A DNA stretch of 64,000 nucleotides from Lachnospiraceae bacterium. GTDB lineage: Bacteria; Bacillota; Clostridia; Lachnospirales; Lachnospiraceae. Made by a program: the position numbers and the translations under genes. The notes beneath the pieces are model-generated. The model was not told the origin of the DNA, searched no databases, and saw only the letters and a list, made by a program, of their open reading frames with translations. Below, one piece after another: positions 33,197-40,200 of this stretch. Numbering within the stretch: the stretch's first letter is position 1; each line of letters begins with the position of its first letter. The DNA lies in the NCBI GenBank assembly GCA_017470935.1, contig JAFUXG010000014.1, positions 38,887-102,886 of the forward strand, in the 5' to 3' direction.

Positions 33197-34063
33197 ATGG
33201 ACGAGAGGAACGATTTTGACCGCAAATACGTGGCGACACGGCTGCCAGATAAATTGAAATTAGCAGAATATATTAAGGAAGCGAAAGGACCGGGGAGAAC
33301 CATGGCTGAATTTGCCAAGCAGTGCGGTACGCTGAGTGCGCCTTCGTTCTCAAGGATTATTAAAGGGAATCTGGTGAAGCCATTATCTGTGGAAATCATT
33401 CAGTCAATCGTAAAGAATGCTGCCCCCGGAGCCCGCGTGGATTATGAGAGCATGATGCGTGCTAATGGCATGGTACCCGAGGATCTGGAGAAAGAAGAAT
33501 CTGACGTGACCGTCTATAGGGAGAGGGCTGAGCAAGAGAAGAATATGGAACTTCAGGTGAGGAACATTATTGCTGACGAGCATTTTGCAAGGGGACATAT
33601 GATTCAGTATTTTCCCGGTCTTCCTGAAGACGTTTCGCCAAGGCATGAATACCTGTCTCCAATTTATATACCAAAAAGCAGGTTTGGTCTGAGTGTTCCC
33701 AGCTCCTTTACAATCCGAATTCAGGGACATGAGCCGTTGTTTTGGAATTATGACGTGAACTTGCATGGCGTGAACCTGCATGTGCCGGAAAGAGATAAGC
33801 TGGCCGAATTGCCCTACGCTTCATTTTTTTTGAGGGATACGTGGGAGCCCGAAACACTGAAGGACGTGAAACAATCCTTTGTGTTTGTGGATAAAGGGAC
33901 GTATCAAGCATTTCTTTCCTTGCTGTCCGGTGTGAAGGTGCATAATAATGTATCTGTGTTGCTGGTGGATTTGAAGGCAGGCAGGATCGTGGAAGAGCAT
34001 TTTTTGGACCGGTATGATGGAAAACAGATGGATAGTGTTTTTTTGGAAAAACGGATGGAGTAA
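33197..34063 (+). CDS. XRE-like regulator with a large unknown C-terminal domain
   Basis: The 288-residue protein opens with a helix-turn-helix-like domain: LAEYIKEAKGPGRTMAEFAK, then LSAPSFSRIIKG and KPLSVEIIQSIV (about residues 20-75). The fit to the XRE fold is good at the level of helix spacing. A coiled linker (about 95-120) leads to a ~165-residue mixed alpha/beta domain that I do not recognise. The gene sits alone between two terminators downstream of mcrBC. It could regulate one of the neighbouring defence modules, which is inference from position. An AGAGG site supports the start. Confidence 0.6.
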   Translation: MDERNDFDRKYVATRLPDKLKLAEYIKEAKGPGRTMAEFAKQCGTLSAPSFSRIIKGNLVKPLSVEIIQSIVKNAAPGARVDYESMMRANGMVPEDLEKEESDVTVYRERAEQEKNMELQVRNIIADEHFARGHMIQYFPGLPEDVSPRHEYLSPIYIPKSRFGLSVPSSFTIRIQGHEPLFWNYDVNLHGVNLHVPERDKLAELPYASFFLRDTWEPETLKDVKQSFVFVDKGTYQAFLSLLSGVKVHNNVSVLLVDLKAGRIVEEHFLDRYDGKQMDSVFLEKRME

Positions 34064-34119
34064 AATCAATAGGAACAAGATTAATAAAAATGTAATAGAT
34101 TCATTTGTTTGATGGATGG

Positions 34120-34160
34120 AGCCCCCCGCAAGACTGTTGCGAGGGGTTCTTTGTTATTTT
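34120..34160 (+). terminator. Terminator after the XRE-like gene
   Basis: CCCCCGCAA and TTGCGAGGGG pair with one mismatch, followed by TTCTTTGTTATTTT. Confidence 0.75.
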
Positions 34161-34289
34161 GCATGTGAAATAAACTAAAGCTGTCTGCGATTTTGTGCAT
34201 ATTTCACGAATATGTTGCAAATACAAAATTTTATCAAAAAATTTATTACATTGAAAATGGTTTTGTGATATTGTATACGCACAATGAAA

Positions 34290-34429
34290 TTTTGACACGA
34301 CGAAATTTTTCTGAAGCGACACATAGAATAGAAAACTGATCACAATATATACAACTATGCAATACTATAGATGCATAGTGGTTTTGTATACATTTTGGCT
34401 AGACAAAATATATTTTGCCAAGGCGAAAT
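34290..34429 (+). promoter_or_regulatory. Three related palindromic 17-mers upstream of the AAA+/ClpP operon
   Basis: TTTTGACACGACGAAAT (34290-34306), TTTTGGCTAGACAAAAT (34393-34409) and TTTTGCCAAGGCGAAAT (34413-34429) fit TTTTGNCNNGRCRAAAT, an imperfect palindrome. The last two start exactly 20 bp apart. A further inverted repeat, CTATGCA/TGCATAG (34355-34378), lies between. They look like operators and differ from the CtsR, HrcA and LexA consensus sites. Confidence 0.5.
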
Positions 34430-34455
34430 ATTTTAAAAACAAGGAGGACAAAAAT

Positions 34456-34485
34456 ATGAAAAATGAAAAGAACATTCCTTATTAA
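34456..34485 (+). CDS. Nine-codon leader ORF before the AAA+ gene
   Basis: MKNEKNIPY followed by TAA, with a perfect AAGGAGG eight bases upstream. The ribosome site is stronger than that of the AAA+ gene 41 bp downstream. It could be a regulatory leader peptide, a translational-coupling device, or the remains of a lost start. No terminator-type structure overlaps it. Confidence 0.35.
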   Translation: MKNEKNIPY

Positions 34486-34526
34486 TTAGAGACATTTAAT
34501 TTAAGAAGAAAGAGAGGGAAATGATT

Positions 34527-37412
34527 ATGAGATATTATGCATTAACACTTAAAACAAATAACGATCAGATTAAAGAAACCCAAAAAGTAAGAATTAAGGA
34601 CTATGGCTATTACAGTGTTATAGCCGGAATGAACAATTATGTGTTTGACTGTATTCGTAATGGAGTAAACTTTTTTGCATATCGAGAGGAAGAAAATAGG
34701 CTTTTAGCTGCTTTTTCCTATAACGAACAATCAATTTCATATGATGCAGCACTATCTGAACTTTCAGAGCAATTGAATAGCTGCTTTGAGTACAAAGGAA
34801 TGTCATCAGAACCGTATGAGATAACTACGTATGACTACATTGATGCTATGAAGGAATGCAGAAGACATCAATATACTGAGCGTTGGTCTACGGCAATAGA
34901 TAATGCAAAGCTGTGGCTATACGAACATATCAGAAATGACATGAAATCAATTCCTTATGAGTATAAAGAGATAATTATATCTGATGAAAAGGGAGATATA
35001 CAGGATATTTACGATGAATCTTTAAAAAATGAGCTTATTAACATCAGGGAACATAGTGTGAAGGAAGCTGATAACGGCGTGATGGCTCACTATTTTGTAT
35101 CTGCCGGCAGCTATAATGCAGCAGAGGATATGATAAATGCTCTTGCTTTGGAATTATACAATGCAGGACGTATCACGACAAAGCGAATAAGCATTGTTTC
35201 TGATATGGTTCCCAACCTTTATTCCAGAGATAATAATTTTGAAAATATGATAGAGAACAGTTATGGAGGAATAGTTGTTTACTATCTGAAAGAAAGTCTG
35301 GGTCATGGTTCAAGTTCATACGGGATGAACTGTCAGTATATAAGCAAGCTCTTTAGGCGTTATAGAAATAAATGTGTATTTGTCTTTGCTTATGAAAAGA
35401 ACCGCACGGGCTTTGCGTATAAAATGCTGCCGGAAATAAGAAAAAATGCTATATGCGTAGAGCTTAAGGAAGGTAAAGGTGATAAGAATGCAGCAGAAAA
35501 ATATCTGAGAACGTTAGTAAAAAAATCTGAATTATCAACCTATGTATCTTCTGTAAAAGAGTTCATGAAGCAATATAAAAAAGAGCAGTATTCTCAAACT
35601 GATGTGCTTGACGCATTTGAAAGATTCGAGCCATGGTGTCTTAACCGTAAAATGAAGGGAATGTATAGCTTTGATCCCGAAGGAAAATTATTACTGGATC
35701 GTGATACAGATGAAATATCTTCTTATGACAAACTTCAAAACCTTATTGGTCTTAATAAGGTTAAGGAACAAATTGACTGTGTGTTAGCTTCGTATATGGT
35801 TGATAATCAGCGAAGAAAATATGAAGGAAAGGACTTTGAAAGCGGAGCTTTACATATGATCTTTGCAGGTAATCCCGGTACTGCAAAAACCACGGTGGCA
35901 CGACTGTTTGCCGGTATAGCAAAGGAAAGAGGAATAATTGAAAGCGGTGTTTTTGTAGAAATCGGTGGTATGGATCTGAATCACATGCATCCAATAATTA
36001 TGCGAAACGTATTTGATGAAGCTAAGGGCGGCGTGTTATTTGTAGATGAAGCGTATGCCTTGTGCAACCCAACACCTGTAGCAACATTTATTCAGGAGAT
36101 GGAAAATCACAGGGATGAAGTGATAGTGATCATGGCCGGCTACAACGAAAGAATGGAGACTTTTCTAAAAGCAAATGAAGGCTTAAAGAGCAGAATCCCA
36201 CACTGGATAGATTTTCCTGATTATAATGCCGACGAACTTACGGAAATATTTCTTCTTATGACAAAGGAACGCAATTTTACCGTCAAAGATGATGCTATAC
36301 AGGAAGCTAAATATATCTTTAAAAAAGCCGGTTGTATAGAGAATTTCGGAAACGGAAGATACGTAAGAAATCTTATGGATAAGGCTGTTCTTAATCAGGC
36401 GTCCAGACTTGTTGGAAAATATAATGATGCCTCTGATATAAAGAAATCCGCTCTCTTTACTTTAATAAAAGAAGATATCACAGCACTCGAAGAGACCCCG
36501 GATAATAGTGATAAATCAAAGGCTGAAAAAAGAATAAAAGAAGAAAGAAAAGCCGGAGATGCCGCTAAAGAGCTTGATAATATGATTGGCTTAAAATCGG
36601 TAAAGGACATTATCCACAAGGCTGTTGCCAATGCAAGACTTAATAAGATATGTATGGATAAGGGCATCAGAAGAGAAAAGACCTCTATGCATATGATATT
36701 TACAGGTAATCCCGGAACAGCCAAAACTACAGTAGCCAGACTCTTTGCCGAGATAATGAAGGATGAGAAGATACTTGATCTTGGTAAATTCGTTGAAGTT
36801 GGAAGAGCAGACCTTATCGGCTCTCATGTAGGTGAGACGGCACCTATGGTAAAGGAGAAATTTAAGGAGGCTCAGGGCGGTGTTCTTTTTATTGACGAAG
36901 CTTATTCCCTTGTTGAATGTCAGAAGAATAGTTTTGGTGATGAAGCTATAAGCACTATAGTTCAGGAGATGGAAAATCAGCGGGATAAAGTAGTAGTGAT
37001 CTTTGCAGGATATCCGGAGCCTATGAAGGAGTTTCTTGACAGAAATCCGGGTATGAAGTCCAGAATAGCATTTCAGGTTAACTTTGATGATTATTCTAAG
37101 GAAGAACTCTGTGATATTACAAAGCTGATGCTTTCCAAGAAAAATTATACTTTGGAAAAAAAGGCTATGAAAAAGATTGAGAATATTTTAGATAAGGTAA
37201 TCGGCAGGGAAGACTTTGGAAACGGTCGATTCGTTCGCAAAATGATTGAAAAGGCTGAACTTAATCTTGCTGAAAGACTGATGTCTTTGCCGGAAGAAGA
37301 GATATCTGAGAAACTGGTCACTACCTTAGAGGTATGTGATATTCCTGGATATGATGATCTTAATCTGTCAGAAAACGACAGAAAATCTGTTCCCTTCGGA
37401 TTTGCATGCTAG
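34527..37412 (+). CDS. Tandem CbbX/SpoVK-type AAA+ ATPase, partner of an adjacent ClpP
   Basis: The 961-residue protein has two intact CbbX/SpoVK-like AAA+ modules: Walker A GNPGTAKT at 448-455 with Walker B VLFVDEAYAL, and a second GNPGTAKT at 727-734 with VLFIDEAYSL. Each has a lid with NFGNGR/DFGNGR and an arginine-finger helix. Residues about 185-345 look like a third, degenerate module without a P-loop (HYFVSAGSYNAAEDM, then GGIVVYYL). Residues 1-180 are unrecognised and may bind substrate. The C-terminus ends SVPFGFAC, whose FGF resembles the IGF/VGF tripeptides by which Clp unfoldases dock on ClpP. ATG 34527 is chosen for the GAGAGGG eight bases upstream. ClpP starts 31 bp after the stop. 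An unfoldase role is inferred. Confidence 0.8.
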   Translation: MRYYALTLKTNNDQIKETQKVRIKDYGYYSVIAGMNNYVFDCIRNGVNFFAYREEENRLLAAFSYNEQSISYDAALSELSEQLNSCFEYKGMSSEPYEITTYDYIDAMKECRRHQYTERWSTAIDNAKLWLYEHIRNDMKSIPYEYKEIIISDEKGDIQDIYDESLKNELINIREHSVKEADNGVMAHYFVSAGSYNAAEDMINALALELYNAGRITTKRISIVSDMVPNLYSRDNNFENMIENSYGGIVVYYLKESLGHGSSSYGMNCQYISKLFRRYRNKCVFVFAYEKNRTGFAYKMLPEIRKNAICVELKEGKGDKNAAEKYLRTLVKKSELSTYVSSVKEFMKQYKKEQYSQTDVLDAFERFEPWCLNRKMKGMYSFDPEGKLLLDRDTDEISSYDKLQNLIGLNKVKEQIDCVLASYMVDNQRRKYEGKDFESGALHMIFAGNPGTAKTTVARLFAGIAKERGIIESGVFVEIGGMDLNHMHPIIMRNVFDEAKGGVLFVDEAYALCNPTPVATFIQEMENHRDEVIVIMAGYNERMETFLKANEGLKSRIPHWIDFPDYNADELTEIFLLMTKERNFTVKDDAIQEAKYIFKKAGCIENFGNGRYVRNLMDKAVLNQASRLVGKYNDASDIKKSALFTLIKEDITALEETPDNSDKSKAEKRIKEERKAGDAAKELDNMIGLKSVKDIIHKAVANARLNKICMDKGIRREKTSMHMIFTGNPGTAKTTVARLFAEIMKDEKILDLGKFVEVGRADLIGSHVGETAPMVKEKFKEAQGGVLFIDEAYSLVECQKNSFGDEAISTIVQEMENQRDKVVVIFAGYPEPMKEFLDRNPGMKSRIAFQVNFDDYSKEELCDITKLMLSKKNYTLEKKAMKKIENILDKVIGREDFGNGRFVRKMIEKAELNLAERLMSLPEEEISEKLVTTLEVCDIPGYDDLNLSENDRKSVPFGFAC

Positions 37413-37443
37413 AAAGCAAATTTAGGTGAAAGGAGTGGTTGTT

Positions 37444-38037
37444 ATGAATCTGGTACCTACAGTAATTGAGTCGAGCGGACGCGGTGAGCGTGCCTACGAC
37501 ATTTATTCAAGACTGTTGAAGGAGAGAATCATTTTTCTGGGTGATGAGATAAATGATACCACTGCAAGCCTTGTGGTGGCTCAGCTTCTTTACCTTGAGT
37601 CGGAGGATGCAGGTAAGGATATAAGCTTGTACATCAACAGCCCCGGCGGCTCAGTGTCAGCCGGAATGGCAATATATGACACCATGAATTATATCAAATG
37701 TGATGTTTCAACAATATGCGTTGGAATGGCAGCAAGTATGGGTGCATTTCTTCTTTCGGGAGGTACGAAGGGAAAAAGACTTGCTCTTCCTAATGCAGAG
37801 ATCATGATTCATCAACCTCTCGGCGGTTTGCAGGGTGCGGCTTCCGACATGCAGATCGAAGCTTTGCACATTATCAAAACTAAAGAAAAGCTGTATCGCA
37901 TAATGGCTGCAAATTGCGGAAAGTCATATAAGGAGATAGAGACGGCTTGTGACAGAAACAACTGGAAGAGTGCAGTTGAAGCTATGGAGTATGGACTTAT
38001 TGACAAGGTAGTTGAGAAAAGGAGCGATGAATTATGA
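37444..38037 (+). CDS. clpP: ClpP-family protease paralogue with an altered catalytic triad
   Basis: The 197-residue protein aligns without gaps to Clp[21 protein letters not shown] opening, [11 protein letters not shown], the nucleophile Ser98 in GMAASMGAF, and His123 in IMIHQPLGG. The catalytic Asp is expected in the D-T-D-R-D-N-F segment before SAEEAxEYGLID. Here that segment is T-A-C-D-R-N-N-W, placing Ala168 at the Asp position; Asp170 is two residues later. Activity may depend on another residue, on mixing with a canonical ClpP, or be reduced. An AAAGGAG site supports ATG 37444. It is in an operon with the tandem AAA+ ATPase rather than with clpX, so it is likely an accessory ClpP. Confidence 0.88.
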
Positions 38038-38086
38038 CATAATGCCTGATGTGTCAGAGTATTTCAAACAGAATACATACCTTAAA

Positions 38087-38124
38087 TAAAAGCGGTGTTT
38101 ACATTATGTGGCATCGCTTTTGTA
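38087..38124 (+). terminator. Terminator after the AAA+/ClpP operon
   Basis: AAAGCG-TG pairs with CA-CGCTTT across an 13-base loop, followed by TTGTAC. It marks the right edge of the accessory island. Confidence 0.6.
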
Positions 38125-38148
38125 CTATACAAAAGAGTGCATATGGGG

Positions 38149-38173
38149 TATAATATGTCTGTTTGAAACGGAC
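38149..38173 (+). promoter_or_regulatory. uvrB -10 box and adjoining palindrome
   Basis: TATAAT (38149-38154) has only a weak -35 (TATACA, 16 bp upstream). The near-perfect palindrome GTCTGTTTGAAACGGAC (38157-38173) sits at the expected transcription start and could be a repressor site. It does not match the Firmicutes LexA consensus. Confidence 0.45.
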
Positions 38174-38190
38174 ATTACGGAGGTGTTTTT

Positions 38191-40200
38191 GTGCAGCCTG
38201 AACAAAATATATTCAAACTTCACGCCCCCTTCGAACCCACCGGAGACCAGCCCCAGGCTATAGATGCACTGGTGAAGGGTTTCAAGGAAGGCAATCAATT
38301 CGAGACTTTGCTTGGTGTTACGGGATCGGGTAAGACATTTACGATGGCTAATGTTATCGCGCAGCTTAACAAGCCCACTATCGTCATTGCGCACAATAAG
38401 ACATTGGCGGCCCAGTTATATAGTGAGTTCAAGGAATTCTTCCCTGAGAATGCAGTGGAGTATTTTGTATCATACTATGATTATTACCAGCCGGAGGCGT
38501 ATGTGCCATCGACAGATACTTATATAGAGAAGGATTCTTCAATAAATGATGAGATAGATAAGCTGCGGCATTCTGCCACCGCAGCCCTCATAGAACGAAG
38601 GGATGTTATCGTCATTTCATCTGTATCCTGCATATATGGCATTGGCTCGCCGGATGATTACGAGGAAATGATGCTGACACTCCGAACCGGCATGACCTAC
38701 GAGTGGGATGAGCTTATATCAGACCTTATTGATATTCAGTATGAGAGAAATGAAATGGACTTTAAGCGAGGGACCTTCCGTGTGCATGGAGATGTGCTGG
38801 AGATTTTACCGGTGTCCACCTTTGAGGATGCTATCAGGATAGAGTTTTTTGGAGACGAGATTGACAGGATGGTGGAGTTCGATCCTCTTACAGGAGAGAT
38901 CAAGAGGGGCATTAACTGTGCATTTATCTTTCCTGCTTCACACTATGTTGTGGCTCAGGAGAAGATTGAACGGGCAGTGGAAGAGATAGAGAAGGAGTTA
39001 GAGGAACGGGTTCAGTATTTCAAAGAAAATGATAAGCTTCTAGAGGCACAGCGTATAAGTGAGAGAACTCATTTTGACATGGAGATGCTCAAGGAGACAG
39101 GCTTCTGCTCCGGTATAGAGAACTATTCACGCCCTCTTGCAGGGTTAGAGCCCGGAGCAACGCCAAATACGCTGCTTGAGTTTTTCAAGGATGACTTTCT
39201 GATGATAATTGATGAGTCACATATGACGGTGCCCCAGATCCGCGGCATGTATGCAGGCGACAGGTCCAGAAAGCAGACGCTTGTGGACTTCGGTTTCCGT
39301 CTGCCATCAGCTATGGATAACAGGCCTCTTAGGTTTGATGAGTTTGAGGACAAGCTGGACCAGGTGCTTTTTGTGTCCGCAACTCCGTCAGATTATGAGG
39401 CGGAGCATGAGATGTTAAGAACGGAGCAGCTGATAAGACCAACGGGACTTCTTGATCCCAAGATCGAGGTTAAGCCGGTGGAGGGACAGGTGGATGACCT
39501 GCTCTCGGAGATCAACAAGGAAGTGGCAGGTGGACACAAGGTGCTTGTTACGACGCTTACCAAGCGTATGGCAGAGGATCTCACTGATTATCTTAGAGAG
39601 CAGGATGTTAAGGTGAAGTACCTGCACTCGGATATTGATACTTTGGAACGAATAGAGATTGTAAGAGACCTTCGTATGGGCGTGTTCGATGTGCTGGTGG
39701 GAATCAATCTTCTACGAGAGGGACTTGATATCCCGGAGATCACACTGGTGGCGATTCTTGATGCTGACAAGGAGGGCTTCCTTCGTTCTGAGACATCCCT
39801 TGTTCAGACCGTTGGGCGTGCAGCGCGTAACAGTGAAGGCCGTGTTATAATGTATGCGGATACAATAACCGGATCCATGAGGGTTGCCATAGATGAGACC
39901 AACCGCCGCCGTGAGATTCAGGATGCCTACAACAAGGAGCATGGAATAACGCCCACCACTATTGAGAAATCTGTGCGTGATCTTATTACCACCGGAACTG
40001 ATGAGGACATAGAAGAATTAAATGCTAAGTATAAAGAGAAGGATATCGAATCCATGTCCAAGAAGGAGCTTCAGGCGGAGATCAAGAAGTATACCAAGAA
40101 GATGGAGACTGCCGCGGCTGAGCTTAATTTTGAGATGGCGGCGGAGTATCGTGACAGGTTGAAGGAGCTTAAGGTGGCGCTGAGGGATTATGATGAATGA
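38191..40200 (+). CDS. uvrB: Excinuclease ABC subunit B
   Basis: The 669-residue product is a full-length UvrB. Visible are Walker A GVTGSGKT near residue 43-50, the damage-wedging beta-hairpin region [12 protein letters not shown], the DESHMT helicase motif, [11 protein letters not shown] with the [10 protein letters not shown] arginine motif, and a C-terminal UVR domain that contacts UvrC/UvrA. It loads at lesions delivered by UvrA in nucleotide excision repair. The start is GTG with an ACGGAGG eight bases upstream; no ATG is available nearby. uvrA lies 1.3 kb downstream with a toxin-antitoxin-like pair in between. Confidence 0.97.

Follow-up and report, generated by a model that had tools for sequence, protein, structure and literature searches.

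The question raised by this locus is which protease, if any, is served by a tandem CbbX-type AAA+ ATPase that is encoded immediately ahead of a ClpP. The locus lies in a stretch of 64,000 nucleotides from a Lachnospiraceae bacterium (contig JAFUXG010000014.1; hereafter the window), in which the gene for a 961-residue ATPase is followed on the + strand, after a gap of 31 bp, by the gene for a 197-residue ClpP, confirming the two-gene operon proposed in a preliminary description of this DNA. To our knowledge, the ATPases serving bacterial ClpP are of the ClpX, ClpA and ClpC/E type. The comparisons reported below point to a family of long CbbX-type ATPases, the window protein among them, which carry a ClpP-type tripeptide in a C-terminal tail and are probably unfoldases docking ClpP by that tail.

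The window ATPase ends in PFGFAC, within a tail predicted to be disordered. A first alignment of seven relatives showed a constant G-F pair and otherwise variable last residues. Relatives were also retrieved by homology alone from GTDB genomes, the whole protein and peptides from outside the tail serving as queries, and the ATPases of all 12 loci found in this way end in [I/L/M/F]-G-F followed by 1-3 residues. In the resulting 13-row alignment, the sole invariant columns beyond D940 are G960 and F961.

A larger collection of CbbX-like ATPases was drawn from the genus (26 genomes), the family (90), the order (245) and the phylum (299) and scored for a tail motif defined as [ILVMFY]-G-[FL] beginning within the last nine residues. 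These samples follow homology searches and are non-random; C-terminally cut open reading frames (ORFs), domain matches shorter than 180 residues and near-duplicates (136 reduced to 130 in the 130-ORF set) were left out of the tail counts. The motif is present in 45 of the 130 distinct, C-terminally complete CbbX-like ORFs and, in the final count over all loci with each gene represented by the copy with the longest flanks, in 58/212 distinct CbbX-like ATPases. All 58 tailed ATPases are longer than 560 residues, and none of the 114 CbbX-like ORFs of 560 residues or fewer bears the tail (the 154 untailed ORFs comprise 62 of less than 400 residues, 52 of 400-560 and 40 longer ones). The chance expectation from composition is 1.05%, and among ORFs not recognised as AAA+ by the motif filter the pattern occurs in 24/1349, at least two of these being family members or fragments. 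In the phylum sample, where one of 30 loci (L173) yielded no ORF by the filter, the tail was found in 4/29 ORFs, namely the window ATPase and three long relatives, and was absent from the remaining 25, 23 of them 288-412 residues long, one AAA+ module being typical. Viral-contig ORFs have it in 6 of 62 distinct cases. Named bearers include proteins of Selenomonas ruminantium TAM6421 pSRC1 (WP_014431257.1, ending AIGFIEE) and Lachnospira eligens ATCC 27750 (WP_012740531.1, ending RVIGF); the tail is absent from a Calothrix relative, phage G gp596 and MT836273.

In a tree built from the AAA domain without the tail, the tail label needs 7 changes as compared to 37.6 with shuffled labels. Of the 42 rows in one clade, 39 are tailed, as are 4 of the 5 in a second group; L130_N_200, an untailed row inside the tailed clade, is a 200-residue fragment. 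Proteasomal ATPases dock from a tail beyond the AAA lid, and these tails plug into the 20S core. Clp ATPases dock via a conserved (L/I/V)-G-(F/L) tripeptide entering hydrophobic pockets of ClpP, and MGF and LGF also occur as Clp ATPase tripeptides (PMC8745299, PMC9753991). The 45 tails carry IGF (28), LGF (7), MGF (5), FGF (2), IGL (1), YGF (1) and YGL (1), and 41 of them match the published ClpP tripeptide set. From 0 to 5 residues follow the tripeptide; therefore the motif does not appear to be read as a free carboxyl end. Outside its tail, the window ATPase fits the tripeptide only as IGL at residues 409 and 689, each ahead of a Walker A (450 and 729), and it has no ClpX-style tripeptide in the loop behind the Walker A of a large AAA+ domain. 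The main result of this analysis is that CbbX-type ATPases carry, across the family, a ClpP-type tripeptide in their tail, and no earlier report of a CbbX/SpoVK-type ATPase with ClpP, or of a C-terminal IGF tail, was found in searches of open-licence PubMed Central papers.

Over all loci, a ClpP lies within 3 kb of six distinct CbbX-like ATPases: those of the window, C67 of the same genome, G082 and L226, and two in G055 (L106 and L107). In L226, from the viral contig collection, an ATPase ending SRIGF, a 155-residue protein and ClpP form a three-gene run with gaps of about 20 bp. When flanks of at least 1 kb were required on both sides, a ClpP was found within 3 kb of 4/38 tailed and 0/113 untailed ATPases (p = 0.0035), the G055 pair being excluded by a contig end less than 1 kb away. 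The loci of six close relatives (L040-L043, C40 of the same genome and G016; identities, in descending order, of 84, 72, 63, 53, 52 and 52%) hold no ClpP, that of L042 covering a few hundred bases on each side. A broader survey based on the C67/G082 type (294 genomes, 30 loci) gave three new tails and no new ClpP neighbour, and a CbbX-like ORF was present in none of 20 regions around other extra ClpPs. As ClpP is over-represented beside tailed ATPases, most of which have none, the link would be a real one without being a fixed pairing. Consequently, the view of this ClpP as dedicated to its ATPase was not borne out: 34 of the 38 tailed ATPases lack a ClpP within 3 kb and homologues occur mostly without one, an outcome that the preliminary description had itself named as refuting the pair. 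What survives of its proposal is that a CbbX-type ATPase feeds ClpP, which the conserved [ILMF]-G-F tail supports strongly, though indirectly. With the tail residing on the ATPase, the family could work without a local ClpP, through the housekeeping enzyme.

The local ClpP departs from the usual form. The source genome (75 contigs, about 78% complete) gave five ClpP-family matches, of which the copy on C57 was taken as the housekeeping one because it is flanked by clpX and a trigger factor gene, as read by eye. The window ClpP scores 310.1 bits against TIGR00493 (cut-off 308.6) and sits on a long branch outside the clade of the genus's 22 closest ClpPs, C57 included. Alignment to E. coli ClpP showed that Ser97 and His122 are retained and that Asp171 is replaced by Asn, so that the Ser-His-Asp triad is incomplete. 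After omission of stretches more than 97% alike or without one of the three triad columns, Asn171 is found in two of 39 distinct ClpPs, those of the window and G082, each beside a tailed ATPase, and Asp in 37; the ClpPs of C67 and L226, also beside tailed ATPases, retain Asp, and those of L106 and L107, which are cut and have an unreadable triad, were not counted. The residues lining the pocket of the window ClpP are mostly hydrophobic with smaller ones at several places, from which no conclusion was drawn. A phage origin of the gene was considered and was of no help, the best ten matches in the phage collection being unannotated human faecal records at 67-72.5%. Listeria monocytogenes ClpP1 (PMC9765437, PMC5361862) has a Ser-His-Asn triad with Asn172 and is predominantly found as inactive heptamers; it gains activity in mixed particles with ClpP2, whose binding to ClpX is tighter. 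Because the same exchange is seen here, the local ClpP may, by analogy, also work in mixed particles.

From these data we infer the following mechanism. The window ATPase would form a hexameric ring whose flexible C-terminal [I/L/M/F]-G-[F/L] tails insert into the hydrophobic ClpP pockets, in the manner of proteasomal ATPases but with the tripeptide of ClpX. Substrates would be chosen by the N-terminal domain together with the degenerate AAA+ module, unfolded by the two ATPase modules and threaded into ClpP. The normal protease of the tailed family would be the housekeeping ClpP, and the local Ser-His-Asn ClpP would work mainly when combined with it in mixed particles, one ring being reserved for the window ATPase. 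The substrates may be phage or mobile-element proteins, or a regulator that has to be removed on infection. As a whole, this explanation, a tail-docking CbbX-type unfoldase family that normally uses housekeeping ClpP and here has an extra Ser-His-Asn ClpP, appears to us likely.

Several observations weigh against it. The pore-loop motif is lost in AAA+ module 1. The tripeptide of the window itself, F-G-F, falls outside the published set, FGF being also found in the sister genome SIG310 and in L318. In the tree, four tailed ORFs branch away from the main tailed clade, and another two are placed among untailed rows. The two ClpP-adjacent ATPases of G055 end in ISLIG, without the motif; they lie within the tailed clade and their ATPase-ClpP pairs are cut by contig ends. 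When this pair is counted as untailed, the association with ClpP becomes 4/38 versus 2/115 (p = 0.034), and 3/37 versus 2/115 (p = 0.093) when the pre-selected window is also removed. The association of Asn with tailed ATPases is likewise sensitive to the window (Fisher p = 0.008 with it and 0.079 without) and comes down to one further independent case. Finally, as a linear peptide IGF is a weak binder of ClpP and has very little activity on it (PMC8745299); docking would therefore depend on six tails acting together.

The same evidence was weighed under other explanations. The ATPase could remodel its clients without degradation, as CbbX does with Rubisco, its tail binding a neighbouring subunit or some other partner and the ClpP standing next to it by chance. 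The ClpP-free surroundings of the six close relatives, the different genes between ATPase and uvrB in SIG310 and CbbX as the nearest solved fold would all suit such a remodeller. On the other hand, the fit of 41 of the 45 tail variants to the ClpP set, the 0 to 5 residues that follow the motif, unsuited to recognition as a free C-terminus, and the recurrence of ClpP beside tailed ATPases tell against it, and we consider it unlikely. The local ClpP might instead be a regulatory subunit that forms mixed rings for the housekeeping ClpXP and is unrelated to the ATPase in function. Listeria ClpP1 gives this idea a precedent, since it raises the affinity for ClpX in mixed particles, and the family does contain extra ClpPs without a CbbX-type neighbour. 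The sole other Asn171 ClpP also adjoins a tailed ATPase, however, and the two genes of the window are only 31 bp apart, with no terminator-like site found on the + strand when positions 34000-38300 were scanned, which makes this alternative decidedly improbable.

The version given by the preliminary description, a co-evolved and obligate ATPase-ClpP pair carried as one transferable module, accords with the tight operon and with the recurrence of ClpP neighbours in C67, G082, G055 and L226. It was rejected, given the close relatives without ClpP and SIG310, where other genes take its place; moreover, most tailed ATPases with sufficient flanks have no ClpP nearby, and the ClpPs of the window, C67 and G082/L226 are not grouped in a single clade. 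We regard it as the least probable of the explanations considered. The tail-docking unfoldase is therefore retained as the preferred explanation, and the features on which it bears are listed in the table.

Coordinates of the ATPase, the ClpP and associated features in the window
Feature	Position	Strand	Remark
288-aa protein	33197..34063	+	3 further tailed-ATPase loci have a homologue upstream or nearby
Tandem CbbX-type AAA+ ATPase, 961 aa	34527..37412	+	open frame from 34521
N-terminal domain, residues 3-145	34527..34955	+	no Pfam match
Degenerate AAA+ module (predicted), residues 147-381	34959..35663	+	without Walker A
AAA+ module 1, residues 400-655	35718..36485	+	intact Walker A and B
AAA+ module 2, residues 676-947	36546..37361	+	CbbX is the closest solved fold
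Disordered C-terminal tail (predicted), residues 950-963	37368..37409	+	pLDDT <50
F-G-F, residues 959-961, proposed ClpP-docking tripeptide	37395..37403	+	
ClpP paralogue, 197 aa	37444..38037	+	69% identity with the genome's housekeeping-type copy
AAC codon for Asn, replacing catalytic Asp171 (E. coli mature numbering)	37957..37959	+	

Domain searches and the structural model bore out the architecture first proposed for the ATPase, that is, an N-terminal domain without assignment, a degenerate module and two intact CbbX-type modules. The protein has the AAA core with AAA_lid_6 of the CbbX/SpoVK type and scores 459.1 bits against TIGR02881, the SpoVK equivalog (cut-off 422.95), a score for the whole protein, which matches in two stretches; with 961 residues and two intact modules it is not a single-module SpoVK of about 290-410 residues. 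A structure search with the N-terminal model gave matches mainly over residues 107-392, the first 106 residues being barely covered, and a profile match between this region and the C67/G082 type (E = 0.011, probability 4%) was not used. The ATPase start was set at the ATG at 34527 because the aligned homologues begin there, and the ClpP gene starts with the ATG at 37444. A promoter scan was uninformative (18 sites, 13.8 in shuffles).

Upstream of the ATPase lie AbiEi-like and AbiEii-like genes, an IS110 transposase, an AAA_5 protein, a McrBC-family protein and a DUF2779 gene that matches Cas4 as well, together with the 288-residue protein of the table, which has no Pfam match; uvrB sits downstream of the ClpP gene. 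A similar island order is kept in SIG310, with two long genes at the AAA_5/McrBC position, the 288-residue homologue, the ATPase and, further on, uvrB, the position of ClpP being taken by proteins of 724 and 237 residues (L052:13691-16553), the former with a DNA polymerase III alpha domain.

Within 2 kb, a WYL-type regulator accompanies 9/38 tailed genes versus 0/113 untailed ones. Three tailed loci supplied the WYL queries; when the query loci L300 and L055 are removed, the counts are 6/35 versus 0/113 (p = 0.0001), three of the six cases belonging to one genome (G374). Within 8 kb of 35 tailed loci, for which there is no control of equal flank, the WYL cluster was met 10 times, DUF2779 7 times and metallophosphoesterases 6 times. 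Defence islands typically carry WYL regulators and nucleases of this kind. The enrichment of DUF2779 was not significant (2/26 versus 0/19). PADLOC gave five matches to the window ATPase, all to the AAA core (the best being IetA at 5.7e-11 and 40.5 bits), with no strong whole-protein match, and none to the window ClpP. In three tailed relatives (L098, L099 and L100) an RNA polymerase alpha C-terminal domain is present (PF03118, E 1e-18 to 1e-20), which may suggest a connection with transcription. From the genomic context, our best guess is that the system acts in conflicts with phages or mobile elements.

Other arrangements were seen around these genes. Behind one tailed ATPase (L044:7054-9300) are encoded a 418-residue FtsH-like protein with AAA and Peptidase_M41 matches and a 329-residue protein without Pfam match, itself ending RRIGF. 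The C67 cluster (L055, G000:C67:1-20000) comprises a MoxR-like ATPase, a VWA protein (DUF2201), ClpP, a WYL protein and two CbbX-type ATPases, which end NVIGFSAVN (between ClpP and the WYL protein) and RRYGL (after the WYL protein); it also holds three proteins of about 590 residues and unclassified kind, seemingly related to each other. On viral contigs, ATPases ending VIGFAK (L203, a 332-kb contig) and KSIGF (L225) were found, by which a phage might use the ClpP of its host. Extra ClpPs of Lachnospiraceae (L280-L289, L295-L297) often adjoin an ATPase-like protein of 410-510 residues; all four of these neighbours that were tested match T4SS-DNA_transf (TraG/VirD4-like), some standing without other conjugation genes in view.

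Taken together, the chances seem about even that this widespread and partly mobile CbbX-type family, some members of which bear the polymerase alpha C-terminal domain, adds another class to the ClpP unfoldases ClpX, ClpA and ClpC/E, one that docks by its tail as proteasomal ATPases do and acts in conflicts with phages and mobile elements, some lineages having recruited their own Ser-His-Asn ClpP into mixed, ATPase-specific particles. If so, ClpP would be served by an additional class of ATPases with the tail-in-pocket geometry of the proteasome, and the view of which proteins ClpP reaches would change. A simple sequence rule would then be at hand for finding more ClpP partners, some extra ClpP genes would gain a rationale, and targeted proteolysis would be indicated in defence islands.

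Among known systems, the AAA+ modules are those of CbbX, SpoVK and EccA (TIGR02881, CbbX structures), from which the window ATPase differs by its two intact and one degenerate modules, its unclassified N-terminal domain and its ClpP-type tail. The local ClpP resembles Listeria monocytogenes ClpP1 in being a second ClpP with a Ser-His-Asn triad; it adjoins an ATPase gene, unlike ClpP1. As in ClpXP, ClpAP and ClpCP, the ATPase is expected to bear an (L/I/V/M)-G-(F/L) tripeptide and to feed ClpP, but in those systems the tripeptide belongs to an internal loop (in E. coli ClpX, IGF at residue 268) and here it is in a C-terminal tail, on modules of the CbbX type. The proteasomal ATPases PAN, Rpt and Mpa have HbYX or GQYL tails; the geometry proposed here, docking through flexible C-terminal tails, would be theirs, whereas the tripeptide and the protease belong to the ClpP system.

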